From Flavobacterium sp. SUN046 (GTDB lineage Bacteria > Bacteroidota > Bacteroidia > Flavobacteriales > Flavobacteriaceae), in NCBI RefSeq assembly GCF_028867965.1, contig NZ_JAPQNT010000006.1, positions 62,001 through 126,000 on the forward strand: a stretch of 64,000 nt of DNA. Reading direction: 5' to 3'. Both the position numbers and the translations under genes were made by a program. The notes under the pieces were generated by a model. That model had not been told where the DNA came from, ran no database searches, and was given only the letters and a program-made list of their open reading frames with translations. Positions 5,902-23,490 of the stretch are shown in pieces (the first letter of the stretch is position 1; each line of letters opens with the position of its first letter).

Positions 5902-7941
5902 TTATTTTTTTAAATCATTAATAATGTTTACTGCTTCGGTAATATGTAAATTGGTTTTAATTTCTTTAATTCGTTTAGTTGTACTACTTTTTAAATATTC
6001 ATCAAATTGTTGATTTTCAATATCAACTGAATTTCGTTCCACATTTATTGGATATATAATTTCAGATTGAGTATTTATCTCTTTCCAAAGTAAATTTAGT
6101 TTACTTACTTCATCAAAAACAGAGTTAAAGTTCAATAAAATTGGCGCTCCTTCAAAATCATAAAATTTATTTATTCTAACATTTAATGCCGAAATTGCTT
6201 TGGCATTAGTATCCAAATTTATCCTTTTTTTGCTAGCTTCAATTGCATCAATTCTAAAAGGATTTGAAAACTCATTAAATCGTAAAACAGCATCAACAGA
6301 TTCATTTTTTAAAGCCGTTTTATTTATACTTTCTCTAGGCATTTGTTTATCAAAAAGTAATGGAATTTCAATATCAGGTGTTATTCCAGTTGTTTGATTA
6401 CTTTTTCCGGTAATTCTATAAAATGCTTGAATAGTCAATTTGAGATATTCGTCAGGATTGTTTCCTTCTTTAATTGGAATAACGCTTTGAACAGAAGCTT
6501 TTCCATAAGATTTTGCACCAATAATAATAGCTCTTTTGTAATCTTGCATAGCATTTGAAAAAAATTCACTTGCTGAAGCAGAAAAACCATTAATCAAAAT
6601 CACTATTGGTCCGGTAAATATGCTTCCTCTATTAGGATCTTTAACCGTTTCGGTATTGTTTCTGCTTTTTAAAATTGCCACTGGACCAATATCAATAAAC
6701 GAACCACTTAATTTTATTGCTTCATTCATTGAACCACCACCGTTATTTTGCAAATCAATTATTAAACCATCAATAGCATCTTTTTGAAGTTTGACAATTT
6801 CTTTAGCAACATCATCACTAACATTAGTTTTTCCGTTTTCAAAGTTGGCATAAAAACTTGGAATTTTTAAATAGCCTATTTTTTTTCCGCCTTTTTCAAT
6901 TACATAACTATAAACACCGTTATCATAATCTTTCAAAACCTTTTTAACTAAATTAACTGTATAGGTTTCACCGCTTTTTTTTCTTAAAGTAAATTCTACA
7001 TTTTTATATTCGCTTGAACTAAAAATTTCATGAACTTTTTTTACCGAAGAACATGATATTGGATACTCTTCATTTAAATATTTAATTTTTAAGATTTGAT
7101 CACCAACTTTAATTTTTTCTGAAAAATAGGCTGAACTTCCTGGCAATATGGCATCAACAATCATTTCATCTTTATCTTTTGATGAAATCATGATTCCGAA
7201 AGTTAAATTATCAGCACTTACCGCAGAAAGAAAACTTGATTTTTCACTTTCAGAAAAATATTCGGTATGTGGATCGAAATAAGAGCAATAAATACGAATG
7301 AATTTAGAATTAAATTCTTTTTTAGTTAATTGCAAACTTGAAATTTTACAAGAATAGATTTCAAAAATTTTTTCTTTAGAAATTTTAGAAAGTTTATCAA
7401 AATTAGCGGATAAAGAATCTTTATTTTTACTCGTTTTAGAAATATCATTTAAAATAAAATAAAGCATACTTTTTTTGTGTGCTTTTTTTAACTCAACAAT
7501 ATCTTTTAAATACGGAAATGCTTTTTTAGAAAACTGTATTGTTTCTTTTCCGTTATAATCAAAAGGTTCTTTTTTTAAATTTTCAATAATTCCATCAAGT
7601 CTTGAAATTGCATTTGAATAAGTGGTGTAAAAAACATTTAAGAAATCACAATTATTTTCTAGAATATTATCGTCTAATTTAAGTTTGTATTTCGTTAAAT
7701 TATTAATTTCAGCTTCTGTAAAAAGTCGGTTGTTTTTATCTAATTCTTTTAAGAAAGATTCAAATACATACACAGACAAACTGTCATCAATAGCTTTTGG
7801 GCGATAATGCTGGTCTTTAATAATTGTATTTATTTGAGAAATTATTTCGCAAGGCTTAACCTCATTTTGCGAAAAGCTAAATAATGGAATTAAAAAAATG
7901 ACTAATAAAGGTACCTTCAAACGATTTATTTTGAAAATCAA
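5902..7941 (-). CDS. S41 family C-terminal processing protease (Prc-like), PDZ domain
   Basis: The product has 679 residues, close to Prc/Tsp size, with a signal peptide (VPLLVIFLIPLFSFSQ). A PDZ domain lies around residues 245-335 (GDQILKI). The protease core spans ~355-530, with the Ser nucleophile in NGFSASASEFF (about 454-458) and the general-base Lys481 in SYGKASVQ. It should cleave periplasmic or envelope proteins from their C-termini. The start codon is TTG at 7941: there is no Met before the signal peptide and the frame is closed upstream. The TTG is the tail of a perfect TACATTTG promoter-like box. The start lies 49 bp after gcvT, and the secreted helical protein follows 3 bp downstream. 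Confidence 0.9.
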   Translation of the reverse strand: MIFKINRLKVPLLVIFLIPLFSFSQNEVKPCEIISQINTIIKDQHYRPKAIDDSLSVYVFESFLKELDKNNRLFTEAEINNLTKYKLKLDDNILENNCDFLNVFYTTYSNAISRLDGIIENLKKEPFDYNGKETIQFSKKAFPYLKDIVELKKAHKKSMLYFILNDISKTSKNKDSLSANFDKLSKISKEKIFEIYSCKISSLQLTKKEFNSKFIRIYCSYFDPHTEYFSESEKSSFLSAVSADNLTFGIMISSKDKDEMIVDAILPGSSAYFSEKIKVGDQILKIKYLNEEYPISCSSVKKVHEIFSSSEYKNVEFTLRKKSGETYTVNLVKKVLKDYDNGVYSYVIEKGGKKIGYLKIPSFYANFENGKTNVSDDVAKEIVKLQKDAIDGLIIDLQNNGGGSMNEAIKLSGSFIDIGPVAILKSRNNTETVKDPNRGSIFTGPIVILINGFSASASEFFSNAMQDYKRAIIIGAKSYGKASVQSVIPIKEGNNPDEYLKLTIQAFYRITGKSNQTTGITPDIEIPLLFDKQMPRESINKTALKNESVDAVLRFNEFSNPFRIDAIEASKKRINLDTNAKAISALNVRINKFYDFEGAPILLNFNSVFDEVSKLNLLWKEINTQSEIIYPINVERNSVDIENQQFDEYLKSSTTKRIKEIKTNLHITEAVNIINDLKK

Positions 7942-7990
7942 ATGTAATAAAATAAAATTATAAAAAAATATTCATTGAAATTGCAATTGA

Positions 7991-9073
7991 TTACTTTTTA
8001 TAAAACGGCATTTTCACCACTTTAGCGGCTATTTTTTTATCTCTAATAAGTATGAAAATTTCAGAATCAACTGCAGCAAATTCAGTTTTTACATAACCCA
8101 TTCCGATTGCTTTTCCTAAACTTGGTGCTTGTGTACCAGAAGTTACAATTCCGATATTATTTCCGTCAGCATCAACAATTTCGTAGTCGTGACGTGGAAT
8201 TCCTCTATCAATCAATTCGAAACCAATTAATTTTCTAGAAACTCCGGCTTCTTTTTGAGCTTTTAAATTTTCTGAATTTGTGAATTCTTTAGTGAATTTT
8301 GTAATCCATCCTAATCCAGCTTCTAATGGAGAAGTCGAGTCATTGATGTCATTTCCATACAAACAAAATCCCATTTCTAAACGTAATGTATCACGAGCTG
8401 CCAATCCTACAGGTTTGATTCCGAATGCTTTTCCAGCTTCGAAAACTTTATTCCAAACTTGTTCTACTTCCGAATTTTTGCAATAAATTTCAAATCCACC
8501 CGAACCAGTATAACCAGTTGCCGAAATAATTACGTGTTCGATCCCAGCAAAATCAGCTACTTCAAAATGGTAATATTTTATAACTGATAAATCTATCGAA
8601 GTAAGTGATTGCATTGCTTCAACAGCTTTTGGACCTTGAATTGCGAGTAAAGAATAATCGTCTGAAAGATTTTTCATATCAACTCCTAAATCGTTGAAAG
8701 ACGAAATCCAATCCCAATCTTTATCGATATTGGATGCATTTACAACCAATAAATATTGCTCTTCTTTTATTTTGTAAACGATCAAATCATCAACAATTCC
8801 GCCAGTTTTATTAGGCAAACAAGAGTATTGTGTTTTTCCAATTTCTAAAATTGCAGCATCATTTGAAGTTACTTTTTGAATCAAAGCCAATGCATTTTCA
8901 CCCGAAAGTAGAAATTCTCCCATGTGCGAAACATCAAAAACACCAACTGCATTTCTAACCGTTTCGTGTTCGGCATTTACTCCTTCGTAAGAAACAGGCA
9001 TATTATAACCTGCAAACGGAACCATTTTTGCTCCCAAACTTTCGTGAATGTGCGTTAAAGCTGTATTTTTCAT
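7991..9073 (-). CDS. gcvT: Glycine cleavage system T protein (aminomethyltransferase)
   Basis: At 360 residues it is the normal length for GcvT. Conserved family features include PFAGYNMPV near the N-terminus, [10 protein letters not shown], the folate-site region [14 protein letters not shown] and the C-terminal barrel segment around [12 protein letters not shown]. It transfers the methylene group from the aminomethyl-lipoyl H protein to tetrahydrofolate, releasing ammonia. No other gcv gene is nearby, which is common in Flavobacteriaceae. Confidence 0.96.
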
Positions 9074-9273
9074 TGGATATATTTGTAAATTTTAAAGTCG
9101 CTAATTTATTCAAAATTTCTTAAAATAATAATTAAAAATTGAATTAAAAATGGATTTATATTAACAAAAGTGATTCATTAATTACTATTTAATAAAAGTT
9201 GAAATTTGAGATGTAAAAATTTTAATACCATTATTCAAAAAAGTATATTTACATTTTTACAAATTAAATTATA

Positions 9274-10413
9274 ATGACATCAGAATTAGAAACTTCTAAT
9301 AAAGAACAAAACACGCCAATTATAGAGCCACATCTTAATATTATATTGACTACTGATGAAGATGATGAACGACCAGTTTATATTTCTGGAAATTTCAATA
9401 ATTGGGTTACGCAAGACAAGAAATTTGAAATGGAGAAAGTCGGTCAAGGATTGTATCATTTTAAGTTTGAACACGATTTTAAATATCCTAAAGAATTGCT
9501 TTATAAATTTACAAGAGGCGATTGGAGTGAAGTTGAGATTGATAAATATGGTAATCGAACCGAAAATCGTTCGTGCGAACAGCAAAATGGCGTGAGAAAA
9601 GAGCACGTTGCCAAATGGAGAAGAAATTGGTTGCCATTTAAACCTAATTTTCTTCCAATTGTGAAGTTGATTTCTGAAGAATTTGAAATTCCGCAATTAA
9701 ATAAAACCAGAAGAGTTTGGGCATTATTGCCTTATGATTATGAAACTTCTACCGAGAATTATCCGGTTTTGTATTTGCAAGATGCTCAAAATTTATTCAA
9801 TGAAAAGGCAAAATACGGTAATTGGGAAATCGATAAAAAACTGGCAGTAATGTCGGAATACAATATCGGAAAAATTATTGTTATTGCTGTTGAACATGCT
9901 GAAAAAGATAGAATTAAAGAATATAATGTTGGAAATACAGTTTTAGGAAACGGTCAAGGTAAAAAGTACATTCGATTTTTAACTGATACTTTAAAACCAT
10001 TTATAGATGATAATTTCAGAACCAAACCCGAACGTGAAAATACAGGAATTGGTGGAAGTTCAATGGGTGGATTAGTTAGCATTTTCTCTGGCATTATGTA
10101 TCCAGAAGTGTTTGGAAAATTGATGATTTTTTCGCCATCGCTTTGGGTTGTGCCAAAAATAAAATTATCTTTTTTGGATATGGAAGAAGCTCAAGATACT
10201 CGAATTTACCTTTATGCTGGCGGCGATGAAAGTGAAACAATGATTGATCATGTCAAAAATTTTAAGAAAAGATTGCTTAAAAAAGACAGTTTATCTGATA
10301 AAATGAAAATTAGACTGAGCATTAATATGGAAGGAAAACACAATGAAGTGTATTGGAGTGATGAGTTTCCGAAAGCGATTGAATGGTTGTTTTATAGCAA
10401 CAAAGAAGAATAA
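9274..10413 (+). CDS. Glycogen-binding-like beta domain fused to an esterase-D-type alpha/beta hydrolase
   Basis: The product has 379 residues. Residues ~20-100 form an immunoglobulin-like domain resembling CBM48/CBM20 (VYISGNFNNWVTQDKKF, then GQGLYHFKF). Residues ~130-375 form an esterase-D/enterochelin-esterase type hydrolase, with the nucleophile Ser263 in GGSSMGG, a likely acid in YAGGDESE and a likely His in GKHNEVYW. There is no signal peptide, so it is cytoplasmic. It opens a three-gene plus-strand set, with an M17 aminopeptidase 19 bp downstream and an ATP-grasp ligase beyond. A TATATTTA box at 9244-9251 could be its promoter -7 element. The substrate is unknown; the context suggests hydrolysis of an ester or thioester of a small peptide. 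Confidence 0.8.
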   Translation: MTSELETSNKEQNTPIIEPHLNIILTTDEDDERPVYISGNFNNWVTQDKKFEMEKVGQGLYHFKFEHDFKYPKELLYKFTRGDWSEVEIDKYGNRTENRSCEQQNGVRKEHVAKWRRNWLPFKPNFLPIVKLISEEFEIPQLNKTRRVWALLPYDYETSTENYPVLYLQDAQNLFNEKAKYGNWEIDKKLAVMSEYNIGKIIVIAVEHAEKDRIKEYNVGNTVLGNGQGKKYIRFLTDTLKPFIDDNFRTKPERENTGIGGSSMGGLVSIFSGIMYPEVFGKLMIFSPSLWVVPKIKLSFLDMEEAQDTRIYLYAGGDESETMIDHVKNFKKRLLKKDSLSDKMKIRLSINMEGKHNEVYWSDEFPKAIEWLFYSNKEE

Positions 10414-10432
10414 TAAATTTTAAATTAAATTA

Positions 10433-11845
10433 ATGAAAATCAATTATATAAATAATTTAACTTCTTTAGATGGTTTAATTATAATTCCAGTTTACGAATC
10501 CGATTCTGATGTCAAATTTCAAGATGTTTCTTTGTCTTCCAAATTGTTTTCTGGAAAGAAAGACAGCAGTTATATTTTACAAAAAGGAGAAGCACATTTA
10601 GTGTTTGTTGGTTTAGGAAAATCACCAGATTATAAAACTATTAAAACGATTTTCAGACGAATTTCTGCTAAGCAAAGTGTTTATTTTGATACTAAATGTT
10701 CGATTGTTTTTCCAAATAAATTTAACGATGAAAATGTAGAAGCTGCGATTTCTGGATTAGTTTTAGGAACCTATAATTTAGGACATTATAAGAAAGATAA
10801 AAAAGCACATTCACTTACAAATGATAATTTTACTATAGAAATAGTTTCTGAAAACGACGTTCAAAAAGCAGTTGAAAAAGGAATTAAAATTGCCAATGCG
10901 CAACTAGAAACGTATAGTTTAGTTGATTTACCTCCAAATAAAATTACACCAAAATATTTATCAAATTGGGCAATTGAAGCTGGAAAAAAATACGGATTTT
11001 CAGTCGAAGTTTTCGGAAACCAAAAATCTAAAGAAATTGGATTGCATTCTTTTCAAGCTGTTGGACAAGGAAGCGAACGTGAATCGCAATTTATAATCAT
11101 GGGTTACCAACCTGAAAATGCCAAAAAACATATTGGTTTGGTTGGAAAAGGCGTAACTTTTGATACTGGCGGATTGAATATTAAAACAGCTGGAATGGTA
11201 CACATGAAATGTGATATGGCTGGCGGTGGCGCTGTTCTTGGAGCAATGCAATTGATTGCCGATTTGAAATTACCTTATCGTGTAACTGCAATTGTTCCGG
11301 CATGTGAGAACTCGGTTGATGCCAAATCGTTTTTACCAAGTGATGTAATTCAAAGTTACAGCGGAAGCACCATTGAAATTATTGATACTGATGCCGAAGG
11401 AAGATTGATTCTTGCGGATGGTTTGTCGTATTTGATAAAAAATTACAAACCTGAAACCGTTATTGATATAGCAACATTAACAGGAAGTTCGGTAGCAACT
11501 TTGGGTTACGAATGTGGCGCACTTTTTACTAATAATGAAAATTTGTCAAGAAATTTGCAGTTTTCCGGTGATGCAATTGGTGAGCGATTGTGGCAATTAC
11601 CTTTGTGGGATTCGTATAAAGGTGATATTGATAGCGAAATTGCAGATGTCAAAAACTATTCGGGTAAACCTGTTGCAGGCGCGATTTCGGCAGCTAAATT
11701 TTTAGAACATTTTACGGATAATCACACTTCTTGGGCACATCTTGATGTTGCTGGAGTAGCATTTGGCGATGATGAATTTGCAAAAACTAAACATGCAACA
11801 GCTTTTGGCGTGCATTTGATTACTAAATTTATTGAAAATCTATAA
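10433..11845 (+). CDS. M17 family leucyl aminopeptidase
   Basis: The product has 470 residues: an N-terminal macro-like domain (~1-155) and a catalytic C-terminal domain. The metal- and substrate-binding signatures are intact: GLVGKGVTFDTGGLNIK, the DMAGGGAVLGAM segment, and DTDAEGRLILADGL (the family's NTDAEGR signature). M17 enzymes remove N-terminal residues from peptides, and some act as Cys-Gly dipeptidases in glutathione turnover. There is no signal peptide. Its position between an esterase and an ATP-grasp ligase gene, 3 bp from the latter, suggests a dedicated role in trimming or recycling the product of this locus. Confidence 0.92.
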   Translation: MKINYINNLTSLDGLIIIPVYESDSDVKFQDVSLSSKLFSGKKDSSYILQKGEAHLVFVGLGKSPDYKTIKTIFRRISAKQSVYFDTKCSIVFPNKFNDENVEAAISGLVLGTYNLGHYKKDKKAHSLTNDNFTIEIVSENDVQKAVEKGIKIANAQLETYSLVDLPPNKITPKYLSNWAIEAGKKYGFSVEVFGNQKSKEIGLHSFQAVGQGSERESQFIIMGYQPENAKKHIGLVGKGVTFDTGGLNIKTAGMVHMKCDMAGGGAVLGAMQLIADLKLPYRVTAIVPACENSVDAKSFLPSDVIQSYSGSTIEIIDTDAEGRLILADGLSYLIKNYKPETVIDIATLTGSSVATLGYECGALFTNNENLSRNLQFSGDAIGERLWQLPLWDSYKGDIDSEIADVKNYSGKPVAGAISAAKFLEHFTDNHTSWAHLDVAGVAFGDDEFAKTKHATAFGVHLITKFIENL

Positions 11846-11848
11846 CTT

Positions 11849-13066
11849 ATGGAACATCCAATCAAAAATTACATCTGTATTTCCAATTACTTTAAAGGAA
11901 ATGATTTCTTGATTAATTTGAAGAAATTAGGCAATCGAGTGTTTTTAATTACTTCAGAAAAATTGCGAGATAAGCCTTGGGCGTTTGAATATATTGATGA
12001 AATATTTTTCATGCCTGGACAAGATGTCGATTGGAATTTGAACGATTTATTGGCTGGAGTTTCCGATTTAATGCGTCACAAAAAAATTGATGCTATTGTA
12101 GCTTTAGATGATTTTGATGTTGAAAAAGCGACGTTTTTACGTGAAAACCTCCGAATAGATGGAATGGGTCAAACTACTGGTAGATACTTTAGAGATAAAC
12201 TTGCCATGAGAATGCAAGCTAAAAGTAAAGGAATTTCCAATCCGCAATTTAGTTCGCTTTTTAATGATGAAGACATCAATACTTTTGCCGATAATGTCGC
12301 TGCTCCTTGGGTTTTAAAACCTCGTTCAGAAGCATCTGCATCTGGAATTATTAAAGTTTTCGATAAAGAATCTTTGTGGAAAAACATACATGAATTAGGT
12401 GCGAATCGCACTAAATATTTGGTGGAGCAATTTCGTCCCGGAGCTGTTTTTCATTGTGATAGTTTGGTTTTTGACGGAAAGATTTTGTTTAGTTTGACCT
12501 CTCAATATTTAGCAACTCCAATGGAAATTTCACAAGGCGGTGGTATTTTTAGAAGTGCCAATATCGATTATAATTCAGCTGACGATAAAGAAATAAAACG
12601 AGTTAATGAGCTAGTTATAAAAGGTTTCGGATTAAAACACGGTGCTTCTCATGCAGAATTCATAAAATGTGAAGAAGATGGAAAAATTTATTTTCTAGAA
12701 ACGGCTTCACGAGTTGGTGGCGCGCATTTAGCAGAAATGGTTCATGCAGCTTCCGATATTAATTTATGGGCAGAATGGGCAGCTATTGAAGACGCTTTGG
12801 CTAAAGAAAAAAAATACAAACTACCAAAAGTCAAAAAAGAATTTGCAGGAATTGTATTGACTTTATCCAAGTTTCAGCATCCCGATTTATCAGAATTTAA
12901 TGATGAAGAAGTATGTTTTCGAGTTCCTTTAGATTATCATGCTGGACTAATTGTAAAAAGCGATAAACACGCAAGAATAAGAGAATTATTAGATGTTTAT
13001 GCAGAACGATTGATTACAGATTTTGCTACTTCGGCACAACAAGAAGCGGTTAAGAAGTTGCATTAG
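11849..13066 (+). CDS. ATP-grasp ligase (carboxylate-amine type)
   Basis: The product has 405 residues. A pre-ATP-grasp Rossmann-like domain (1-~110) leads into YFRDKLAMRMQAKSKGI. The ATP-binding Lys157 sits in WVLKPRSEASASGI, with LVEQF after it. The metal ligands appear in HAEFI (Glu270) and FLETASRVGG (Glu284, Arg288). The layout is like amino-acid ligases and biotin carboxylase-type ATP-grasps, which make an acyl phosphate and then an amide. The substrates are unknown. It is the last gene of the plus-strand set and runs straight into the structured repeat at 13081. Confidence 0.85.
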   Translation: MEHPIKNYICISNYFKGNDFLINLKKLGNRVFLITSEKLRDKPWAFEYIDEIFFMPGQDVDWNLNDLLAGVSDLMRHKKIDAIVALDDFDVEKATFLRENLRIDGMGQTTGRYFRDKLAMRMQAKSKGISNPQFSSLFNDEDINTFADNVAAPWVLKPRSEASASGIIKVFDKESLWKNIHELGANRTKYLVEQFRPGAVFHCDSLVFDGKILFSLTSQYLATPMEISQGGGIFRSANIDYNSADDKEIKRVNELVIKGFGLKHGASHAEFIKCEEDGKIYFLETASRVGGAHLAEMVHAASDINLWAEWAAIEDALAKEKKYKLPKVKKEFAGIVLTLSKFQHPDLSEFNDEEVCFRVPLDYHAGLIVKSDKHARIRELLDVYAERLITDFATSAQQEAVKKLH

Positions 13067-13080
13067 GATAATGTTTAGCA

Positions 13081-13199
13081 GCTACAATAAATGGTAAACT
13101 TTGTAACGGTATATTTTCCACTAAGATACTATTTCTTGCGAAAGAAATACATGAATTTAGCACATTTGTAGCCATTTTTTGAAACGGCTGTTAGTAGCT
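13081..13199 (-). repeat. Cassette-type structured repeat, copy 1
   Basis: It shares a 42-bp identical core (13111-13152) with copy 2 (13872-13913), plus diverged flanks such as CACATTT, GCCATTT and TTGAAAC-GCTGTTAG. The core holds a perfect 8-bp stem, TATTTCTT and AAGAAATA around GCGA (13130-13149). Compared with copy 2, the left arm is partly deleted. It lies directly after the 113-residue ORF on the minus strand, and the stop codon of that ORF is inside the repeat end. Confidence 0.8.
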
Positions 13200-13532
13200 A
13201 GCATTTATTCCATTTCGATAAATTCCAACTTTATTAAATTCAACTACTTTTCTAAAATTGTTGTTCCAAACAGTAAAATTATAATCTCTAAAAACTTTTG
13301 ATATTTTTTTTACAAGTTCAATTTTATTCATTTCTGATGATTCATTTCTAGATAACACAAAATAGAGATTTTCGTCATCGAAATTTTCATCGATAATTTT
13401 CCGAATTTGTATTTCTCCAATATTTTTATCATTCCCAAAAAAACTCCACTCACTTTCTGTATTTTCGGCTTTTATCCATTCAACATGGTTTAAATAAGTT
13501 TTGTTTGATTCGTAAATTAATCTTGATTCCAT
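13191..13532 (-). CDS. Small hypothetical protein in a cassette-like unit
   Basis: The product has 113 residues and belongs to no family that I recognise. It has no signal peptide or membrane segment and a mixed alpha/beta composition, with acidic stretches (DENFDDENLY). The start lies 10 bp after the 78-residue gene, so the two form one transcription unit. Its stop lies inside the structured repeat copy 1. Small soluble proteins of this kind in cassettes are often toxin, antitoxin, immunity or defence accessory proteins, but nothing in the sequence proves that. Confidence 0.55.
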   Translation of the reverse strand: MESRLIYESNKTYLNHVEWIKAENTESEWSFFGNDKNIGEIQIRKIIDENFDDENLYFVLSRNESSEMNKIELVKKISKVFRDYNFTVWNNNFRKVVEFNKVGIYRNGINASY

Positions 13533-13542
13533 CTTTAAATTT

Positions 13543-13779
13543 TTAGAATACTAGTTCAATCTCATTTTCCTGAAGGTAAATATTCTCAGTCAATTTTTCT
13601 ACAATTTCTTTTTCAAGTTTATATTCTAAACTTAAATACTCATTAACGTTTTCAATTGTTTCGAAATTCAAAGATGCCATATAATCTTCATAGAAGGCTT
13701 GAATATCTTCCCAAGATTCAAATTGTTTTTTACTTAGCATCATTCCGGATTTCAAATAAATCAAATTATATTTTTTCAT
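13543..13779 (-). CDS. Small hypothetical protein in a cassette-like unit
   Basis: The product has 78 residues, acidic and probably helical (KKQFESWEDIQAFYEDYMAS). I recognise no family. It is the first gene in a two-gene unit bounded by structured repeat copy 2 upstream and copy 1 downstream, and it has a plausible ATG start. The tight 10-bp link to the next ORF and the open frame support it being real. Confidence 0.5.
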   Translation of the reverse strand: MKKYNLIYLKSGMMLSKKQFESWEDIQAFYEDYMASLNFETIENVNEYLSLEYKLEKEIVEKLTENIYLQENEIELVF

Positions 13780-13825
13780 TGAACTAATTTTACTTCATTA
13801 TTTGAGTGCAATTTTGTGCTGCTTT

Positions 13826-13960
13826 CTACCAACGTTTCGCGTCTTCAAGAAGTGGCGAACTTCGTAACCGCATATTTTCCACTAAGATACTATTTCTTGC
13901 GAAAGAAATACATCAATTTACCACATTTTTCGCCATTTCTTGAAACTGCTGTTAGCTCCT
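13826..13960 (-). repeat. Cassette-type structured repeat, copy 2
   Basis: A nested inverted repeat. The outer arm AAGAAGTGGCGAA (13848-13860) pairs with TTCGCCATTTCTT (13929-13941) with one mismatch, and the flanking TTTC/GAAA bases extend it. The inner hairpin is TATTTCTT/AAGAAATA around GCGA. The ends CTACCAACG and GTTAGCTCC are near-inverse. Size, nested pairing and AAC...GTT ends recall integron attC sites. It follows the 137-residue ORF on the minus strand. Confidence 0.75.
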
Positions 13961-13965
13961 GGTTT

Positions 13966-14379
13966 TTAATATTTAAATTTCAAATAAGTAATAAATTCCA
14001 AACTTGAGTTTCTAATTCCGTTTTCTATTTCTATTTGATTAAGTTTCTTTTGCTTTTCCCAGTTTCTGTTTGGGCGGTAAATTGCCAAATCAAAATTGTA
14101 ACTATTATTTGGATCAAGCCATTCATCAATGTCTATTAGTTTTCCGTTTATTTTAACATAAATTCGTTTCCAATCTTTTTCAATAATTGCTGAAGTTGAG
14201 TTAAGTTTATTAAAAGCAATATCTCCGTTTTCAGATTTCCAATATATTTGTTGCAAATCGCCATATCGGTCTTCAACTTCCATTAATCGTAAATTATATG
14301 CTATAAATAAAAAAATTATAATTAAAAAAATTACAATTCTAAATATCCATTTTTCGACTTTTGATTTTTGTGTTTTCAT
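13966..14379 (-). CDS. Small single-pass membrane protein in a cassette-like unit
   Basis: The product has 137 residues. A positively charged N-terminus (MKTQKSKVEKW) is followed by one transmembrane helix (IVIFLIIIFLFIAYNL) and a C-terminal domain of about 100 residues with several Trp and Tyr, likely exported. I recognise no family. The stop is 6 bp before structured repeat copy 2, so gene plus repeat has the layout of one cassette. Confidence 0.5.
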   Translation of the reverse strand: MKTQKSKVEKWIFRIVIFLIIIFLFIAYNLRLMEVEDRYGDLQQIYWKSENGDIAFNKLNSTSAIIEKDWKRIYVKINGKLIDIDEWLDPNNSYNFDLAIYRPNRNWEKQKKLNQIEIENGIRNSSLEFITYLKFKY

Positions 14380-14405
14380 TAGGTTTTTGGAGGTTTCGGG
14401 TAAAA

Positions 14406-14456
14406 TAGCAGCTAACTTATAATATACGAAACAGATATTATTATATTAGCTGTTTT
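14406..14456. repeat. Imperfect inverted repeat at the outer border of the cassette-like island
   Basis: AGCAGCTAACTTATAATATA and the complement of TATTATATTAGCTGTTTT pair imperfectly. The GTTAGC/GCTAAC end motif matches the end of repeat copy 2, so this may be a short or decayed third boundary site. Confidence 0.45.
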
Positions 14457-14558
14457 GGTAAAATAAACTCAAAATGTATTTCACCAAATATAACAATTTA
14501 GTGTATATCATAATAAGATTAAAAGTTGCCCAAAATTAAATTGTTATAAAATAGAATT

Positions 14559-15749
14559 TTATTTCTCAAACATTCCAACCGTTCCGCCAACCCAATCTTT
14601 GTCTTTATTGAATTTTACTCCAATCATTTCACCACGACTTAATCGAACCAAATTGGTTACTAGAGTAGGAGATGGCTCATCTTTTTTCCAAACGGCAAGT
14701 AGTCGAACTTCTGCTTTTACTTTTCCGTCTGGTGATTCAATTACAGGTTTGTAGTTGACTTTTTTCTGTAAGATATATAAATCTTTTTCTTTTACTGACT
14801 CAATATCGCCAGGTTTTACGTGAAAAATTACACCAGTTCCGGAGAATGAAAATAATGGTTTTAAAACATAATTTTCTAAATCGGTTGGAATTTCTTTTAA
14901 ATCCGAAAGCAAAGTAGTTTCAATAAAATATTTTCCTTTTAAATATGGCAAAATAAATTTACTAATTCTGAAAAACCAATTCGGATGTCCAGCCCATTCA
15001 ACATCTAAATCATCTGAGAAATCGAAATTCAATTTCAAATCAGTTCGCAAATCTAATTCATCAAAAATGACACGATTGTAAATGCGTTTGATTAAAATTT
15101 CTTTTCCTATAGTATTTGTGTAAAATAATTGATTTCCTTTTTTTATAATATCCGTGACACAAACTGTTTCAATATCTAAATCACGTTTGCAGTAATAAAA
15201 ATCGATTTTTGTATTTTGCTTTTCAGGTTCAATTTCTAATAAAACTACATTTTCTTTTGGATGATTATTACAAATAGCTTCTTCTACAATTTTAAGATAT
15301 TCTTCTTTAGAAAGTCCATTAAAAAACGGTGTTAAATCAGATAAAAACGGATAATGTTTTTGGAATTTATCAGCTAAATTATTTTGAAAATTATATAATG
15401 AAGGAAATCCTTGTACTTCAATAAGTTTCGGAATTATCTTTCCATCTTCTTCACAAATTCCAAAATCAATGGCCAAAAAAGTCGTATGATTGTCCTCATT
15501 TGGAACTTTTCTGTTTAGTTCTAATGCTTTGTTTGTTAAAGTAATAAAATCCTCTTTTTTTATAAAATCAATGACTTCTTGACTTGCTTCAAGCAATTGC
15601 TCTTTTAATGAATTTGGAATAAAAAAAGGAGTTTCTCCAATTCGGAAAGTTACTTTATAATCAAAATCAGATGTTATATCATTAATGAAATTTTCGTATT
15701 TTTCAGTGGTAAAATTATCGTTGAATTGGGTTCTGTATTTTGGATTCAT
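14559..15749 (-). CDS. Putative circularly permuted ATP-grasp ligase
   Basis: The product has 396 residues. The motif that normally closes an ATP-grasp site, an acid followed by E-x-N/Q-x-x-P, appears early: Asp95 in LAIDFG and Glu111 in LIEVQGFPSLYN. The ATP-binding Lys and glycine loop come late: LKPLFSFSGTGVI (Lys297), then YILQKKV and EVRLLAVW. This order suggests circular permutation, as in glutathionylspermidine synthase-like ATP-grasps. It is the last gene of the minus-strand set, 156 bp after the amidotransferase-like gene, in a gap holding an inverted repeat. The substrate is unknown. The fold assignment rests on motif order alone. Confidence 0.65.
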   Translation of the reverse strand: MNPKYRTQFNDNFTTEKYENFINDITSDFDYKVTFRIGETPFFIPNSLKEQLLEASQEVIDFIKKEDFITLTNKALELNRKVPNEDNHTTFLAIDFGICEEDGKIIPKLIEVQGFPSLYNFQNNLADKFQKHYPFLSDLTPFFNGLSKEEYLKIVEEAICNNHPKENVVLLEIEPEKQNTKIDFYYCKRDLDIETVCVTDIIKKGNQLFYTNTIGKEILIKRIYNRVIFDELDLRTDLKLNFDFSDDLDVEWAGHPNWFFRISKFILPYLKGKYFIETTLLSDLKEIPTDLENYVLKPLFSFSGTGVIFHVKPGDIESVKEKDLYILQKKVNYKPVIESPDGKVKAEVRLLAVWKKDEPSPTLVTNLVRLSRGEMIGVKFNKDKDWVGGTVGMFEK

Positions 15750-15754
15750 TGGAA

Positions 15755-15897
15755 AGTATTAAGATTTAAGTATTAAGACAGAAATTTTTGAATTGCGAAT
15801 TGATTTGATTTTATAATTAAATACTAAATGTATGTAAATGAGAAGTCTAATTTATTATATGCAAAATCTTAATACTTAATACTCAAATCTTAATACT
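15755..15897. repeat. Long-spaced inverted repeat between two locus genes
   Basis: AGTATTAAGATTT-A-AGTATTAAG at 15755-15777 is matched by its complement at 15867-15897 with one substitution. The arms are about 90 bp apart. I recall similar attaagattt phrases in other flavobacterial intergenic regions. Confidence 0.65.
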
Positions 15898-15905
15898 AAT
15901 AAACA

Positions 15906-16736
15906 CTAATTAGTCAATATCTTCTTATGCTTCATCAAATCATTTATCGCAATTCTCAAGAAATTCGGTATAATAGTTTCATTAGTTTTAAAGATTTTAT
16001 TTTCATCTAATAAATCTTCCAACATATTTCTGAATTTTGTTCTGCCTTTCATGGCAATAATTTTGTCGCGTTTTTCTTTATTTTTCAAATTTGAAATAAA
16101 ACTCAACGCATCAGCTTCCGGATGAAATTGTGTTCCAATAAAATAATCAGAGAAACGAACAGCCATAATTGCGCGTTCATAATCACCACGATGATTTCTG
16201 ATTTTCTCTAATGATAAAATTTCGGCACCTTTTTTCTTAAAAATGCTTAATCTTGGTTGAACTACTTGATAATCACGACTATCAATTGCAAAAAATGGAT
16301 TTTGCAAACCTTCAAAAATGGCATCGTTCATTCCTTCTTCGGTTTTGTGCATCGACATTACTCCAAACGATGTTGATTTTCGTTTTGTTATTTTAGCCAA
16401 ACCAAAGTGATTACAAGCCATTTGAAACGAATGACAAATGAATAAAACGTGTTTTTTAATTTTGTTTTCTTCATTCCATTTAGACAATTCGTCTATGAAA
16501 TTATAGTATTTTGTATCCCATTTTCCATCGCCTTCTAAAGGATTTCCTGGTCCGCCAGTTGAAATGTAAATGTCAAATTTTTCAATATTTGGGAATTCAC
16601 TTTTACCTCTTATATCAAATATTTGAAAAGTTACAATTTGATTAAACCTATTTATAATATCAATAATACAACGCATTCCTTGATTGGGTTCGCCATCGTA
16701 CATATCTAGAATCGCTATTCGTATTTGGTTACTCAT
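15906..16736 (-). CDS. Class I glutamine amidotransferase-like protein (GAT1)
   Basis: The product has 276 residues, longer than a bare GAT1 domain. The oxyanion loop is STGGPGNPLEG (59-69). The nucleophile is Cys101 in LFICHSFQMA, and the partners are His205 and Glu207 in GTQFHPEAD. An intact triad means hydrolase or transferase activity is likely: either glutaminase activity supplying ammonia or gamma-glutamyl peptide hydrolysis as in PuuD-like enzymes. No synthase domain is fused. The extra ~60 C-terminal residues are helical. It has its own promoter-like box and sits between the GCS2 and permuted ATP-grasp genes, so it probably acts on their substrate or product. Confidence 0.85.
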   Translation of the reverse strand: MSNQIRIAILDMYDGEPNQGMRCIIDIINRFNQIVTFQIFDIRGKSEFPNIEKFDIYISTGGPGNPLEGDGKWDTKYYNFIDELSKWNEENKIKKHVLFICHSFQMACNHFGLAKITKRKSTSFGVMSMHKTEEGMNDAIFEGLQNPFFAIDSRDYQVVQPRLSIFKKKGAEILSLEKIRNHRGDYERAIMAVRFSDYFIGTQFHPEADALSFISNLKNKEKRDKIIAMKGRTKFRNMLEDLLDENKIFKTNETIIPNFLRIAINDLMKHKKILTN

Positions 16737-16755
16737 TTTTTACAATTTGGTAATG

Positions 16756-16763
16756 CAAAGATA
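16756..16763 (-). promoter_or_regulatory. Promoter -7 box upstream of the GAT1 gene
   Basis: TATCTTTG on the minus strand is an exact TAnnTTTG match, 20 nt upstream of the start codon. I see no TTG at the right distance, so this is a partial promoter match. Confidence 0.45.
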
Positions 16764-16839
16764 AAGTATTTATAAAAAAGATAAATTCACATTAATAATC
16801 AGTTATCAAACATTTCATTAACAAAAACGTTGTAATTTA

Positions 16840-17952
16840 CTATAATCCTTTTGTAAACTCACTTGTTATCAAATCTACAACTTTAGTTAAATCATTAGTT
16901 TGATTGAAAACTGCCAATTGTTTGTCAGCTCCAGTTCCGTCTCTTAAAATCGTGTGTACATAATTTATTTGTTCACGGCTGCCTAATTCATCAACTACAT
17001 CATCCACAAAATCAAGTAATTCTAAAATTAATTCTTTAGTTTCTACTTCTTTTTGCAAACCAAAATCAATCATATTGCCTTCATTTCCGTAACGTGCTGC
17101 TCTAAATTTATTTTCTTTAATCAAAGCAATTCGGTACATGTTGAAACTGGTATTTGAAACATTTAATTTGTATAATTTGGCTACAATTGCTTGAATAATA
17201 GCTACAATACACATGGCTTCATCAACAGTCAAACTCATATCACAAATACGAAATTCAATTGTGTCATAAAATGGATGCAAACGCAAATCCCACCAAATTT
17301 TCTTAGGATTATCAATACAATTAGTTTTTACTAATGTATCCAAATAATTATCATAAGAAGAAACAGAATCAAAATATTCAGGCAAGCCAGTCCGTGGAAA
17401 TTTATCAAAAACTTTGGTTCTGAACGATTTATAACCAGTATTTCTTCCTTCCCAAAAAGGAGAATTTGCAGATAATGCAAAAATATGTGGCAAAAAATAA
17501 CACGCTTGATTCATCAATTGCAAACCTTGTTCTCGATTTTGAATTCCAACATGACAATGCATTCCGAAAATTAAATTCGAACGTGCTGCATCTTGCAATT
17601 CATTGACTATATTGTGATAACGCGGATCATCAGTAATCGGTTGGTCTTGCCATCTCGAAAACGGATGCGTTCCTGCACCACCAACAACCAAACCTTGTTT
17701 ATCGGCAAGTTCGACAATTTTACTTCGCAAAAAACGAATTTCTTTGCTTGCATCATCAACACTTTGGCAAATATTCGTACCAACTTCAACCACCGATTGA
17801 TGCATTTCTGCTTTCACTTGCTCGTTTAAAATCACTTTTGCACCATCAACAATTTTTGACAAATGTGAACGCAAATCTCTAGTATTCGGATCAATTATTT
17901 GATATTCTTCTTCAACGCCAAGCGTAAATATGGGTAATTTTTTCGTCATCAT
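16840..17952 (-). CDS. GCS2-type carboxylate-amine ligase (YbdK-like)
   Basis: The product has 370 residues, the family size. The N-terminal FTLGVEEEYQI motif (Glu14-16) is the metal-binding signature of the GCS2 glutamate-cysteine ligase family. FGMHCHVGIQN and IEFRICDMSL are further conserved active-site segments. Family members join the gamma-carboxyl of Glu to an amine such as Cys; many YbdK-like members have only weak or unknown activity. It lies between the D-Ala-D-Ala-ligase-like ATP-grasp and the GAT1 gene. The start may be either of the two adjacent Met codons (17952 or 17949). Confidence 0.9.
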   Translation of the reverse strand: MMTKKLPIFTLGVEEEYQIIDPNTRDLRSHLSKIVDGAKVILNEQVKAEMHQSVVEVGTNICQSVDDASKEIRFLRSKIVELADKQGLVVGGAGTHPFSRWQDQPITDDPRYHNIVNELQDAARSNLIFGMHCHVGIQNREQGLQLMNQACYFLPHIFALSANSPFWEGRNTGYKSFRTKVFDKFPRTGLPEYFDSVSSYDNYLDTLVKTNCIDNPKKIWWDLRLHPFYDTIEFRICDMSLTVDEAMCIVAIIQAIVAKLYKLNVSNTSFNMYRIALIKENKFRAARYGNEGNMIDFGLQKEVETKELILELLDFVDDVVDELGSREQINYVHTILRDGTGADKQLAVFNQTNDLTKVVDLITSEFTKGL

Positions 17953-17968
17953 TTCTGTTTTTAGTCAT

Positions 17969-17994
17969 CAGTCTCAGTTTACAGTCTCAGTTTA
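17969..17994. repeat. Two perfect tandem copies of a 13-bp unit
   Basis: CAGTCTCAGTTTA occurs at 17969-17981 and 17982-17994, and a partial third copy (CAGTTT) follows. It fills the gap between the GCS2 and ATP-grasp genes. Confidence 0.75.
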
Positions 17995-18031
17995 CAGTTT
18001 TTAACTGACTACTGCTACTGAAAACTGCCAA

Positions 18032-18973
18032 CTATTTCGCGGCATTCTTAATAAAATCACCCCAAGTTAAATTCATTTTTCCAGGTTTTTGTTTTTTTGC
18101 TGCAGCAATTGCCATTTTTGCAGACGTTTCCACAACCCATTCAAAATTTTCGGCACCAACCGAAGTCAATTCGGCATCTGGAGCAGGATTTCCAAAATCA
18201 ATAGCATACGGAATTCCATCACGAACAGCAAATTCAACCGTGTTAAAATCATAACCTAAACCTTTACAAAGTTTTAAAGTATAGTCTTTTACTGTTGCTA
18301 ATAATTTTTTATCAGTTGGCGGACCATCAATTACATATCTTAAATGATGTGGATTTCTAGGTTCGTATTGCATAATTCTAACGTCTTTGCAACCCAAACA
18401 ATACACTCTAAAATATTCGGTAAAAACAATTTCTTCTTGTAACATCATTACTAGTTGTCCAGTTTCTTGATGTTTTTCCCAAAATTCTTCTTTGTTTTCT
18501 AATCGGTACACGTTTTTCCAACCGCCACCAGCATAAGGTTTCATATAAGCTGGAAATCCAATATAATCAAAAATTCCTTCCCAATCCATCGGATATTTCA
18601 AATTTCTAAAGGATTTAGATGTTGTATCTGTCGGATGTTCAGCCGAAGGTAAAATCACCGTATTTGGTAACGGAACGCCCAAAGTATCTGCCAAAGCATT
18701 GTTGAAAAACTTATCGTCAGCACTCCACCAAAATGGATTGTTAATAACATTAGTTCCAGTCAAGGCAGCATTTTTCAAAAAAGCACGATAAAACGGAACA
18801 TCTTGTGAAATTCTATCAATAATTACTGCATATTCGCCACCTTTATTTTGAACCACTTTATCAATCGAAACGGCTTCGGCAATAATATCTTTTTCACCTT
18901 TTGAGTTTACTCTATCTATAAATGCTTGTGGATAAGTGTCTTCCATTCCAAACAAAATTCCAATTTTTTTCAT
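18032..18973 (-). CDS. D-Ala-D-Ala-ligase/glutathione-synthetase-like ATP-grasp protein
   Basis: The product has 313 residues. The N-terminal Rossmann-like half starts MKKIGILFGMED. ATP-binding Lys145 is in YMKPYAGGGWKNV, followed by MMLQEEI and EYFRVYCLG. The metal ligands are Glu247 in NTVEFAV and Asp259/Asn262 in YAIDFGNPAPDAE. All core residues are present, so it should be an active ligase. The length fits the Ddl and GshB superfamily, but the substrate-binding loops differ from true Ddl. It is the second gene of the minus-strand set, 50 bp after the esterase gene. Confidence 0.85.
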   Translation of the reverse strand: MKKIGILFGMEDTYPQAFIDRVNSKGEKDIIAEAVSIDKVVQNKGGEYAVIIDRISQDVPFYRAFLKNAALTGTNVINNPFWWSADDKFFNNALADTLGVPLPNTVILPSAEHPTDTTSKSFRNLKYPMDWEGIFDYIGFPAYMKPYAGGGWKNVYRLENKEEFWEKHQETGQLVMMLQEEIVFTEYFRVYCLGCKDVRIMQYEPRNPHHLRYVIDGPPTDKKLLATVKDYTLKLCKGLGYDFNTVEFAVRDGIPYAIDFGNPAPDAELTSVGAENFEWVVETSAKMAIAAAKKQKPGKMNLTWGDFIKNAAK

Positions 18974-18981
18974 TTTTTATT

Positions 18982-19009
18982 GTCATTGCGAGTTTGCGAA
19001 GCAATCTCT
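18982..19009. repeat. TCATTGCGAG...GCGAAGCAATCTC palindromic element
   Basis: GTCATTGCGAG is followed by GCGAAGCAATCTC, with ATTGC and GCAAT as inverted ends. I recall this phrase as a dispersed palindromic repeat in many unrelated bacterial genomes. It fills most of the 50-bp gap between two locus genes. Confidence 0.65.
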
Positions 19010-19023
19010 GATTATATAATTAT

Positions 19024-19737
19024 TTAGTAAAATTTAATTCGTGATAAATAATGCGGAAACATTTCTTTCCAAACTGGCCAATCGTGTTCTCTATCTTGCC
19101 GAACATCCAACCAATGCGGAATATCACGTCGTGCCAAAACACCACTCAATTTTAAGTTCGCATCATAGCAAATATCCCAATTGGAAGTTCCTAGAATGAT
19201 GTCCATATTCCATATTTCGTGGTCGTTAATTCCGGGAATATAATCTTCGGGCGAATTGTAAAAAACATCATCGTCCCAATGTCCGTCCATAAAACTTTTT
19301 ATAGAAAATGCGCCACCCATCGAAAATAGGTGACTTACATAACCAGGATGTTTGAAAGCAAAATTTGCTGCATGATAACCACCAAAACTGCAACCAGCAA
19401 CGGCAACTTTTCCTGAACCAGTATTGTTTCTTACACGTTCAACAATCTCGTGACAAATCATTTTATCGTACCAAGTATGGTTGCGAATGCGATGCACCGG
19501 ATGAATATTTTTGTTGTAAAAACTATCTTTATCAATACTATTCGGACAAAAAATCTGAATCAAACCTTGCTCAATATACCAACGAGCACTTTCAATCAAT
19601 CCTTGATCTTTATTTTCGTGATAACTTCCCATTGAAGTTGGGAAAAGAATTACAGGATATCCAGCATGACCAAAAACCAACATCTCGATTTCTCTGTTTA
19701 AATTGGGCGAATACCATTTGAAATATTCTTCTCTCAT
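19024..19737 (-). CDS. Esterase-D-type alpha/beta hydrolase
   Basis: The product has 237 residues, cytoplasmic. The nucleophile is Ser117 in VAGCSFGGYH, an acid is likely in the ILGTSNWDICYD region, and the His is in DREHDWPVW near the C-terminus. The start of the fold shows VILFPTSMGSYHE. It is related to S-formylglutathione hydrolase and enterochelin-type esterases, and is the second such enzyme in this locus. It is the first gene of the minus-strand set that continues with ATP-grasp, GCS2, GAT1 and permuted ATP-grasp. The substrate is unknown. Confidence 0.82.
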   Translation of the reverse strand: MREEYFKWYSPNLNREIEMLVFGHAGYPVILFPTSMGSYHENKDQGLIESARWYIEQGLIQIFCPNSIDKDSFYNKNIHPVHRIRNHTWYDKMICHEIVERVRNNTGSGKVAVAGCSFGGYHAANFAFKHPGYVSHLFSMGGAFSIKSFMDGHWDDDVFYNSPEDYIPGINDHEIWNMDIILGTSNWDICYDANLKLSGVLARRDIPHWLDVRQDREHDWPVWKEMFPHYLSRIKFY

Positions 19738-19984
19738 AAATTTCTTTTATTTTAACAATTATAGTAAAAATAACCTTGTGAAATGTATAAAAGTATATAA
19801 ATACCGAATTAATTTTGAAAGTTCAGTTATCTCAATTGAATTTTGAAAACTATGTAAAAAAAGTGCTTTTTTGAGGCATCAAACAGCATTTTATTTAATG
19901 TTTTATAATTTTTTTAAATGAAGTAATTTTCTTTTAACCAATTGATTGTTCTAATTTATACTAGATTTTACCATTCAACGATTA

Positions 19985-20145
19985 TTTTTTTGTTTTTAAG
20001 AAACAATTTCCAGCTCTACATTTCAAGTTTGTTTATTTCAAGTTGTTTTTCTAAACTCTAAAAAGAGCTTCTTACAGTCGCTTTTTTACAGCAAGAAAAA
20101 CTAACTTTCCATTGCACAAAGCTTTCCATTTCTATCTGGGTTAGG
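19985..20145 (-). other. Structured intergenic element of a recurrent flavobacterial type
   Basis: It lies in the 445-bp gap 19738-20182, which holds no convincing ORF. On the minus strand it runs from an ACCCAGATAGAAATGGAAA phrase through TTTTTCTTGCTGTAAAAAAG to TAGAGCTGGAAATTG. I recall a similar order of CCCGATAGAAGCGGAAA and AGCGGATAGCGGGAAA phrases in intergenic regions of other Flavobacterium genomes, but cannot check this. It follows the L,D-transpeptidase stop on the same strand. The rest of the gap (19738-19984) shows nothing I can name. Confidence 0.4.
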
Positions 20146-20182
20146 TTTTACAATTAAAATGAAATTTATCTTTTTAGGGATT

Positions 20183-21031
20183 TTATTTACTAGTATAATT
20201 ATTTTTTATAGTTTGTTCCGCTAGAATTTTTGTCAAATATTGCGAAGTTACTTTCTCAATTTCATCTGCCGAAAATTGCAATGCTTTTGGATTATTAATT
20301 ACTTCCAACCAAGGTTTTTTGGCATCAAAATCATAGCTTCCAAAAACTACAACTGGAGTTCCTTTTACAGCAATATTTTCTTTGTCTTTCAAAATCCATT
20401 GATCAGCAAATTCATATAAAAACTTGGCGTCTTTTTCTTGTAATCTTAAGCAAGAATGCGATGCTGGATAGCCAGGCAATTCATACTCATGAAATCCAAC
20501 ACCCAATTTATTTTCGATATTAAAATTCCATTTCAAATCCCATTCATCGTTAAAAGTACTTGTAGTTTTCTCGGCTTTCCAATTGGTAAAAAACAATCCT
20601 GTTGGAGTTGGATCTTTTTTTCTTCCCATATTTGTTGGTCCAGCATAAACCAAAACACCATTTTCATAAGCACCAAATGATTGAGTTGCATAAGAAAATA
20701 GTATGATTTTATCCACTTCATTTAAAAATGAAACCTCCAATGGAAAAGGCAAATAATACACAATGTCACCACTAAAATCAGTAGGAACAATAATAGAATC
20801 TAATTTAGAAACCGTGTTTTTATCAACTCTATTTGTTGCTAAAACGATTGCTATTTTTGTTGAGTCAGTTTTATTTTTTTCGAACCAATCTTTAGTTTTT
20901 AGTAAAGAATAAGTAAACTTTTTAGGTTCATTTCTTACAATTGCTTTTTTAGGTGGTTTTGTATGACTTTGTTGACATGATAAAATCGAAAGACTTATCA
21001 AACTTAAAACTAATAGCACTGAATTTTTCAT
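20183..21031 (-). CDS. L,D-transpeptidase family lipoprotein (YkuD domain)
   Basis: The product has 282 residues. The signal peptide ends in a lipobox (LSLISLSILSC), so the mature protein is lipid-anchored. The YkuD catalytic motif is intact: a His in VGFHEYELPGYPA and the nucleophile Cys in SHSCLRL. Such enzymes form 3-3 peptidoglycan cross-links or attach proteins to peptidoglycan, or in some cases cleave such links. It starts 75 bp after thrC on the same strand but is functionally unrelated to it. Confidence 0.88.
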   Translation of the reverse strand: MKNSVLLVLSLISLSILSCQQSHTKPPKKAIVRNEPKKFTYSLLKTKDWFEKNKTDSTKIAIVLATNRVDKNTVSKLDSIIVPTDFSGDIVYYLPFPLEVSFLNEVDKIILFSYATQSFGAYENGVLVYAGPTNMGRKKDPTPTGLFFTNWKAEKTTSTFNDEWDLKWNFNIENKLGVGFHEYELPGYPASHSCLRLQEKDAKFLYEFADQWILKDKENIAVKGTPVVVFGSYDFDAKKPWLEVINNPKALQFSADEIEKVTSQYLTKILAEQTIKNNYTSK

Positions 21032-21106
21032 GGTTATGATTTTCAGTAAAATTCAGTTTTTTAAAGTGCTTTTTCCTTACATAATTTTTAGAAAATATTG
21101 TGAAAT

Positions 21107-22396: not shown

Positions 22397-22410
22397 AATG
22401 AAATAATTTT

Positions 22411-22510
22411 TACACGAATTTCACGAATTTTCACGAATTTTTTATTCTAAATAAATTTCACTAATTTGATTAGTGTAATCTTTTAATTAGTGCAAATTAG
22501 TGTAATTCGT
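22411..22510. repeat. Short-unit repeat cluster between thrB and thrC
   Basis: TCACGAATTT occurs twice in tandem (22421-22430, 22431-22440) after a partial copy. Further along, TTAGTG-type units and TTAGTGTAATTCGT act as rough inverse copies. It almost fills the gap between the two genes. Confidence 0.65.
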
Positions 22511-22512
22511 AC

Positions 22513-23451: not shown

Positions 23452-23464
23452 AATTTTATTGTTA

Positions 23465-23490
23465 GAGACGCGATTAATCGCGTCTTTACA
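23465..23490. repeat. 26-bp palindromic repeat between thrA and thrB
   Basis: It contains the perfect palindrome AGACGCGATTAATCGCGTCT. One end supplies the TAA stop of thrA (23486-23488). I recall this GAGACGCGATTAATCGCGTC phrase as a dispersed repeat in Bacteroidota genomes. Confidence 0.8.

Follow-up and report, generated by a model that had tools for sequence, protein, structure and literature searches.

An eight-gene cluster of ATP-dependent ligases and hydrolases in Flavobacterium, inherited together and probably forming one pathway for a small amide-linked conjugate

The window analyzed here is a 64,000-nucleotide stretch of a contig from Flavobacterium sp. SUN046 (NZ_JAPQNT010000006.1, positions 62,001 to 126,000). 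At positions 9274-19737 it carries eight enzyme open reading frames (ORFs) in two convergent sets: P1, P2 and P3 on the plus strand and, in order of transcription, P10, P9, P8, P7 and P6 on the minus strand. All eight had been listed in an earlier note on this DNA, and all were found again as intact ORFs. With a probability of roughly two in three (0.68), we consider the eight genes to be a single cytosolic pathway, independent of non-ribosomal peptide synthetases (NRPS), that builds and dismantles a small amide-linked conjugate. The observations behind this reading are the co-inheritance of the genes, their order, their family membership and their conserved residues; the chemistry is conjectured from these.

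Families were assigned by scanning translated ORFs against the Pfam and NCBIfam libraries (E threshold 0.001) and by comparing protein profiles with structures in the PDB. P1 (9274..10413, plus strand) is an esterase-D-like hydrolase with an N-terminal extension. The Pfam Esterase family (PF00756) matches residues 141-370 with an E-value of 3e-28, and a GGSSMGG nucleophile motif can be read by eye. The extension, previously labeled CBM-like, matched no domain in either library. P2 (10433..11845, plus) is an M17 leucyl-aminopeptidase-like peptidase (Peptidase_M17, 3e-107) with a DTDAEGR motif, also read by eye. P3 (11849..13066, plus) is an ATP-grasp ligase (ATP-grasp_4, 1e-7) whose profile matches the L-amino acid ligase 4wd3 with an E-value of 9e-23 over profile positions 73-309, a similarity that clearly relates it to the L-amino-acid ligases. 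P10 (19024..19737, minus), the first gene of the minus-strand set, encodes an esterase-like alpha/beta hydrolase (Abhydrolase_1, 1e-6) whose profile matches the putative esterase 5vol (5e-8). Its S117 and H218 are invariant in 18 sequences, and we take them to be the nucleophilic serine and the catalytic histidine, the catalytic columns of P7, P9 and P10 having been assigned from knowledge of the folds.

The remaining four proteins range from full family members to distant relatives. P8 (16840..17952, minus) is a full-length GCS2/YbdK-family carboxylate-amine ligase by profile: it scores 205 bits against Pfam GCS2 (2e-60; cut-off 21), exceeds the curated cut-off of the PRK13515 'carboxylate-amine ligase' model (518.6 bits versus 371), and matches YbdK (1r8g) with an E-value of 7e-64. 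P7 (15906..16736, minus) has the class-I glutamine amidotransferase (GAT1) fold, with a Pfam GATase score of 35.9 bits (8e-9; cut-off 22.8). C101, H205 and E207 and the G61-G64 loop are invariant in 20 sequences, which is the triad and oxyanion loop of that class, and the best structural matches are the uncharacterized protein 3l7n (1e-4) and homoserine succinyltransferase 2vdj (4e-4). P9 (18032..18973, minus), which served as the marker of the system in our searches, is a divergent ATP-grasp ligase. Taken alone it has no Pfam match at 0.001; it has a weak match to the NCBIfam RimK family (9e-6, 25 bits versus a cut-off of 143), and its profile weakly matches the D-Ala-D-Ala ligase 3r23 (0.003). 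Residues K145, Q179, E180, R189, E247, D259 and N262, those expected of an ATP-grasp enzyme, are invariant in 23 sequences. Profile comparison of P9 with P3 gave no significant similarity, and a protein-collection search with P9 gave labels like 'RimK family ligase' and 'hypothetical protein' but nothing that stated a function.

P6 (14559..15749, minus) has no Pfam match of its own at 0.001, scoring 11.6 bits against the GSP_synth cut-off of 29.3; of the 27 members of its family alignment, 18 match GSP_synth (PF03738) weakly, with a best E-value of 9e-4. The sole PDB match of its profile is YgiC (7uk8; 0.016), over the KPLFSFAGSGV stretch. E111, Q113, K297, K330 and R349 are invariant in 27 sequences, and in 27/27 the LIExQ motif (109-113) lies ahead of KPL (297); LIExQ may correspond to the metal-binding glutamate motif, which in permuted ATP-grasp enzymes precedes the KP strand. 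On these weak similarities P6 is likely to be a circularly permuted ATP-grasp protein, as the earlier note had proposed, and its relationship to the glutathionylspermidine-synthase/YgiC class would be a distant one.

To follow the genes among close relatives, each protein was searched in 60 genomes, 37 of the same genus (the window's own included) and 23 from other genera of the order. P6, P7 and P8 occur in an identical set of 15/60 genomes (12/37 within the genus and 3/23 outside it), and each of those 15 also holds strong matches to P1, P2, P3, P9 and P10. In two of these genomes (G040, G053) all eight are on one strand in a single run, P1-P2-P3-P10-P9-P8-P7-P6. In three others (G029, G010, G001) the P1-P3 block lies about 18-27 kb from the core, and in G055 all eight are present at four separate places. 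Thus the joint inheritance of the eight does not depend on their being neighbors. Further relatives show matches to P1, P2, P3, P9 and P10 that are weak or paralogous, P2 paralogues of lower identity being common; G017 and G036 have a close P2 orthologue only. The proposal that the locus is one pathway of amide-bond-making enzymes and hydrolases is supported, since the eight genes behave as one.

The association extends across the phylum. Among 395 genomes, P9 matches 137, or 134 when three with weak matches only are set aside. P3 matches 110, 80 of them strongly (390 bits or more) and 30 weakly. Every one of the 80 strong-P3 genomes, which are spread over 23 families, also holds P9, and none of the 261 P9-negative genomes has a strong P3. 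The two genes are often far apart: among the 38 of 80 pairs for which the P3-P9 distance was compared, it is up to 10 kb in 13, 18-30 kb in 4 and at least 0.7 Mb along the linear sequence in 11 (in one of these, G088, it would shrink to about 0.12 Mb on a circular chromosome), and in the other 10 the genes lie on separate contigs. Of the 395 genomes, 97 have a P7 match; it is strong in 86, and 84 of these 86 carry P9.

Gene order is similarly constrained. In the GTDB collection we took the best 80 of at least 558 confirmed loci, mostly from Flavobacterium, Algoriphagus, Belliella, Pedobacter, Dyadobacter and Mucilaginibacter, with two from Ignavibacteriaceae. P10-P9-P8-P7-P6 follow one another on one strand in 69/80, with median gaps of 12-40 bases. 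Of the other 11, five stop near the end of the stretch (L033, L045, L098, L102, L107) and two are short of genes despite further sequence (L077, no P7 or P6; L083, no P6); L082 and L095 read P9-P8-P6, and L099 and L106 read P9-P7-P6. P3 was found in 16/80 stretches, always on the strand opposite to the core, and P1 and P2 were labeled alongside it in 14 of the 16. Conservation in 15/60 relatives and 69/80 loci exceeds chance by far.

In 40 further stretches from other, more distant families the neighborhood changes its parts. Relatives such as L143, L118 and L141 (three tested) have a 339-342-residue M29 aminopeptidase-family protein in the P7 slot between P8 and P6, and L142 and L095 have an ORF of similar size there. 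In seven others (L114, L115, L120, L125, L126, L137, L138) a protein of about 450-480 residues stands beside P9/P7 at the GCS2 position, and no GCS2 or P6 was found within these stretches; in L137 the gene caller labeled only P7. Of these seven proteins three were tested; all three had matches to circularly permuted ATP-grasp models, but only one cleared the cut-offs. An esterase follows in some loci (two tested). By these family matches, the theme of ligase plus hydrolase persists while the enzymes change. The set found together in close relatives dissolves in these more distant families.

The replacement of P7 bears on what this protein does. Because an M29 peptidase fills its slot in some relatives, we lean toward hydrolysis rather than ammonia transfer. 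Hydrolysis would also suit a route of amine capture and use, in which P8 and the ATP-grasp enzymes gamma-glutamylate an amine and P7 hydrolyzes the gamma-glutamyl product. Such a route would resemble that of PuuA, which gamma-glutamylates an amine, and PuuD, which hydrolyzes the gamma-glutamyl product. The adjacency of a carboxylate-amine ligase and a GAT1 protein with an invariant Cys-His-Glu triad fits this scheme, as does the M29 substitution; yet amine oxidase, aldehyde dehydrogenase and permease are absent from the eight genes, and three ATP-grasp ligases beside P8 exceed what the route needs. We judge it improbable.

Several observations weigh against a single pathway of this kind. The Fisher test for P3/P9 co-occurrence (9e-48) is not corrected for kinship, and esterases and M17 peptidases have many paralogues. 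Strong P3 is missing from 54 of the 134 P9-positive genomes and strong P7 from 50, so neither protein is needed everywhere. P7 occurs without P9 in 2 of the 86 genomes (G449, G211). In 13 of the 40 distant stretches (L117, L119, L123, L127-L135, L139) P9 has no recognized partner; the gene caller, which can hide genes in GC-rich DNA, left P9 itself unlabeled in two of the 40. When the profile of P6 was compared with that of the permuted ATP-grasp protein of the distant relatives, the probability came to 1.4%, so homology is not shown, and the class of P6 itself depends on the E-values of 0.016 and 9e-4 given above. One draft genome, G003, has only P1-P3, with P3 in two pieces. The neighborhood holds no direct pointer to polyamines, and the proposed chemistry is read from the enzyme families.

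Some of these same observations would be expected if the plus- and minus-strand sets were two independent operons that had become neighbors by chance. P1-P3 stand apart from P6-P10 in many genomes, P9 often lacks a strong P3, and single sets can be found: P1-P3 in G003, and in G211, which belongs to the same genus, an adjacent P6-P7-P8 (L152 3379-6801) with no P9 match, a weak P3 and a trace of the start of P10 (E 0.22). G211 looks like a decaying locus, and in G449 P7 stands alone within the 20 kb stretch. However, all 80 strong-P3 genomes hold P9, G040 and G053 carry the eight genes as a single run, and G003 is an 89% complete draft. Independent conservation of the two sets, raised in the earlier note as the finding that would count against a common pathway, is thus mostly not what we see: among the 395 genomes strong P3 never occurs without P9, and the partial exceptions are G003 among the 60 relatives, the P9 genomes without P3 and the 13 stretches with P9 alone. 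We consider two unrelated operons to be very improbable and the idea largely refuted.

A different function could be argued from P9 itself. In Flavobacterium (the window's copy included), Algoriphagus and Belliella the protein ends shortly after a WG motif and has no tail. Many P9 proteins of Pedobacter, Dyadobacter, other Spirosomataceae and marine Flavobacteriaceae continue into a Lys/Ala/Pro/Thr-rich extension of up to about 170 residues. Scoring a tail as a last 30 residues with at least 20% Lys and at least 60% Lys, Ala, Pro and Thr together, we found one in 29/116 P9 proteins versus 2/1391 other ORFs of at least 200 residues from the same 120 loci, the two exceptions being proteins of 1321 and 1236 residues. 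Long Lys/Ala-rich tails that resemble histone H1 are seen in L079 (10001-11377, plus), L081, L091, L107, L108, L150 and others; the tail in L079 has an additional segment that is helix-hairpin-helix-like in appearance.

Such tails, together with weak matches of 11/23 P9 family members to R2K_2 (E up to 0.1, best 3e-4), would suit a protein- or peptide-tagging system, in which P9 and P6 would attach short peptides or amino acids to an acceptor protein, or else to the lysine-rich tail of P9, with P7, P2 and the esterases as editors of the tag. CDC123 proteins of the R2K clade have been proposed as protein-peptide ligases (PMC4431377). But the window's P9 is not among the R2K_2 matches, which are weak throughout; it and its Flavobacterium and Algoriphagus orthologues are tail-less, so the tail is not a general substrate; and no acceptor protein was recognized among the recurrent neighbors examined. 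Tagging is accordingly an unlikely explanation. In a tree of 93 P9 sequences, Flavobacterium groups with Cyclobacteriaceae (Algoriphagus, Belliella, Indibacter) with support of 100/99, and marine Flavobacteriaceae (Winogradskyella, Polaribacter, Robiginitalea) stand apart from Flavobacterium (100/98). Because of this grouping, the tree, being that of a single protein and no proof, suggests that P9 was transferred between these lineages.

Family names alone would point toward thiols. P8 falls within the family called glutamate-cysteine ligase 2, P6 shows weak similarity to glutathionylspermidine synthase, and the earlier note had raised a glutathione- or glutathionylspermidine-like thiol conjugate as a possibility. 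As a substitute for glutathione the locus is disfavored, because BshC, of the bacillithiol pathway, is present in all 15 locus-bearing genomes. Replacement of bacillithiol by the locus was likewise rejected, since BshC occurs in 57/60 genomes (42/45 of those lacking the locus). No GshA plus GshB (or GshF) of known families is among the eight genes, which is as far as they were sought in this genome. The locus might instead make an additional glutathione-related low-molecular-weight thiol or thiol conjugate, which BshC leaves possible. Against this stands the thiol pathway already in place. P8 is only distantly similar to plant glutamate-cysteine ligase (GCL; 2gwc, 4e-5), scoring 32.1 bits against the plant GCL model (cut-off 463) and 63.9 against the cyanobacterial one (cut-off 249); no NCBIfam glutathione synthase model matched P9 at 0.001, and the neighbors scanned included no partner gene specific to thiols. 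We think a second thiol improbable as well.

For the favored single pathway, the families suggest the following division of labor. P8 (YbdK-like) and P3 (L-amino-acid-ligase-like) would each couple two small building blocks at the expense of ATP, and P9 would extend or cap the unit so made. Because of its link to YgiC, P6 may form the bond between the carboxylate of a peptide and an amine, perhaps a polyamine. P7 would supply or remove a gamma-glutamyl or amide group, and P2, P1 and P10 would trim or recycle the product. That the product is a peptide-polyamine conjugate is a guess, which we put forward tentatively. A broader version is doubtful: a Bacteroidota-wide pathway to a peptide-polyamine or similar cationic peptide, in which P8, P3 and P9 would make the peptide, P6 would add the amine, and the conjugate would act at nucleic acids or ribosomes. 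If true, action at nucleic acids or ribosomes would account for the recurrent histone-H1-like, lysine-rich tails of P9, including the one with the helix-hairpin-helix-like segment.

The eight proteins, read by eye, show no signal peptide and would all be cytosolic. The earlier statement that NRPS, carrier protein and transporter are missing holds in that none of the eight genes has the size of an NRPS or a typical transporter, and for carrier proteins it extends to the ORFs that were scanned, in which none was found. The 1.5 kb that separate the convergent sets hold three small ORFs on the minus strand, of 113 (13191-13532), 78 (13543-13779) and 137 residues (13966-14379), around which the local GC content is 0.27. 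Neither the 113- nor the 137-residue ORF has a Pfam or NCBIfam match or a homologue in the 80 GTDB loci. No Rfam RNA element was matched in 9000-20300. A known anti-phage defense system was rejected, as none of the seven proteins compared (P2 left out) matched a PADLOC model.

Readings of flanking translations give a GcvT-like aminomethyltransferase and a C-terminal-processing-type protease at 5902-9073, and L,D-transpeptidase-like, threonine-synthase and homoserine-kinase genes at 20183-25933; neighbors at other Flavobacterium loci often differ from these. Candidates for further constant partners were rejected as restricted to one or a few lineages: a 132-residue protein, a mechanosensitive channel, a 4HBT thioesterase, DUF3817, a gluconate dehydrogenase subunit, a Crp-like regulator, YceI and pirin. 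The 132-residue protein, which has no Pfam match and occurs in Flavobacterium loci such as L021 (11816-12214), lies on the core strand in 33/33 loci that have it, its median distance to the core being one gene; there is none beside P10 in the window. One distant relative has, directly behind P9, a gene for an ammonia-lyase of the aromatic amino acid (histidine) type (L131 10726-12228), a single case.

About one third of the phylum genomes sampled (134/395) carry the P9 marker, many with more ATP-dependent ligases adjacent or elsewhere. Co-inheritance this tight suggests a metabolite, which a deletion strain compared with its parent could reveal, and the patchy presence within the genus (12/37) offers a natural comparison. 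Our literature search found no paper on this operon, or one naming its product, by title or the start of the abstract; most subscription papers lay outside its reach.

The closest systems known to us are conserved neighborhoods of ATP-dependent amide ligases of different folds (ATP-grasp and GS-like) that occur with peptidases and hydrolases and without NRPS, which were reportedly described by Iyer et al. in 2009. The present analysis contributes co-occurrence across the phylum and the replacement of enzymes within slots. The R2K clade, including CDC123, is approached through the weak matches of P9 members, and six terms covering the partner enzymes or Bacteroidetes are all absent from the main text of PMC4431377. 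YgiC and YjfC are termed peptidylpolyamine synthetases in PMC12568646. P6 shares with YgiC the KP(L/I)FS..G..V stretch and weak profile matches, but its full-length similarity to this group, which includes glutathionylspermidine synthase, is too low for family assignment, and the partner genes differ. P8 is a full-length profile member of the YbdK/GCS2 ligases but here belongs to a conserved operon that also holds P9, P7 and P6. P3 matches the L-amino acid ligase 4wd3 (BL00235) in profile, and differs in that its strong matches in the 395 genomes occur only alongside P9. We therefore describe the feature as a variant of the NRPS-independent amidoligase kind of cluster, and as one co-inherited pathway in its own lineage.

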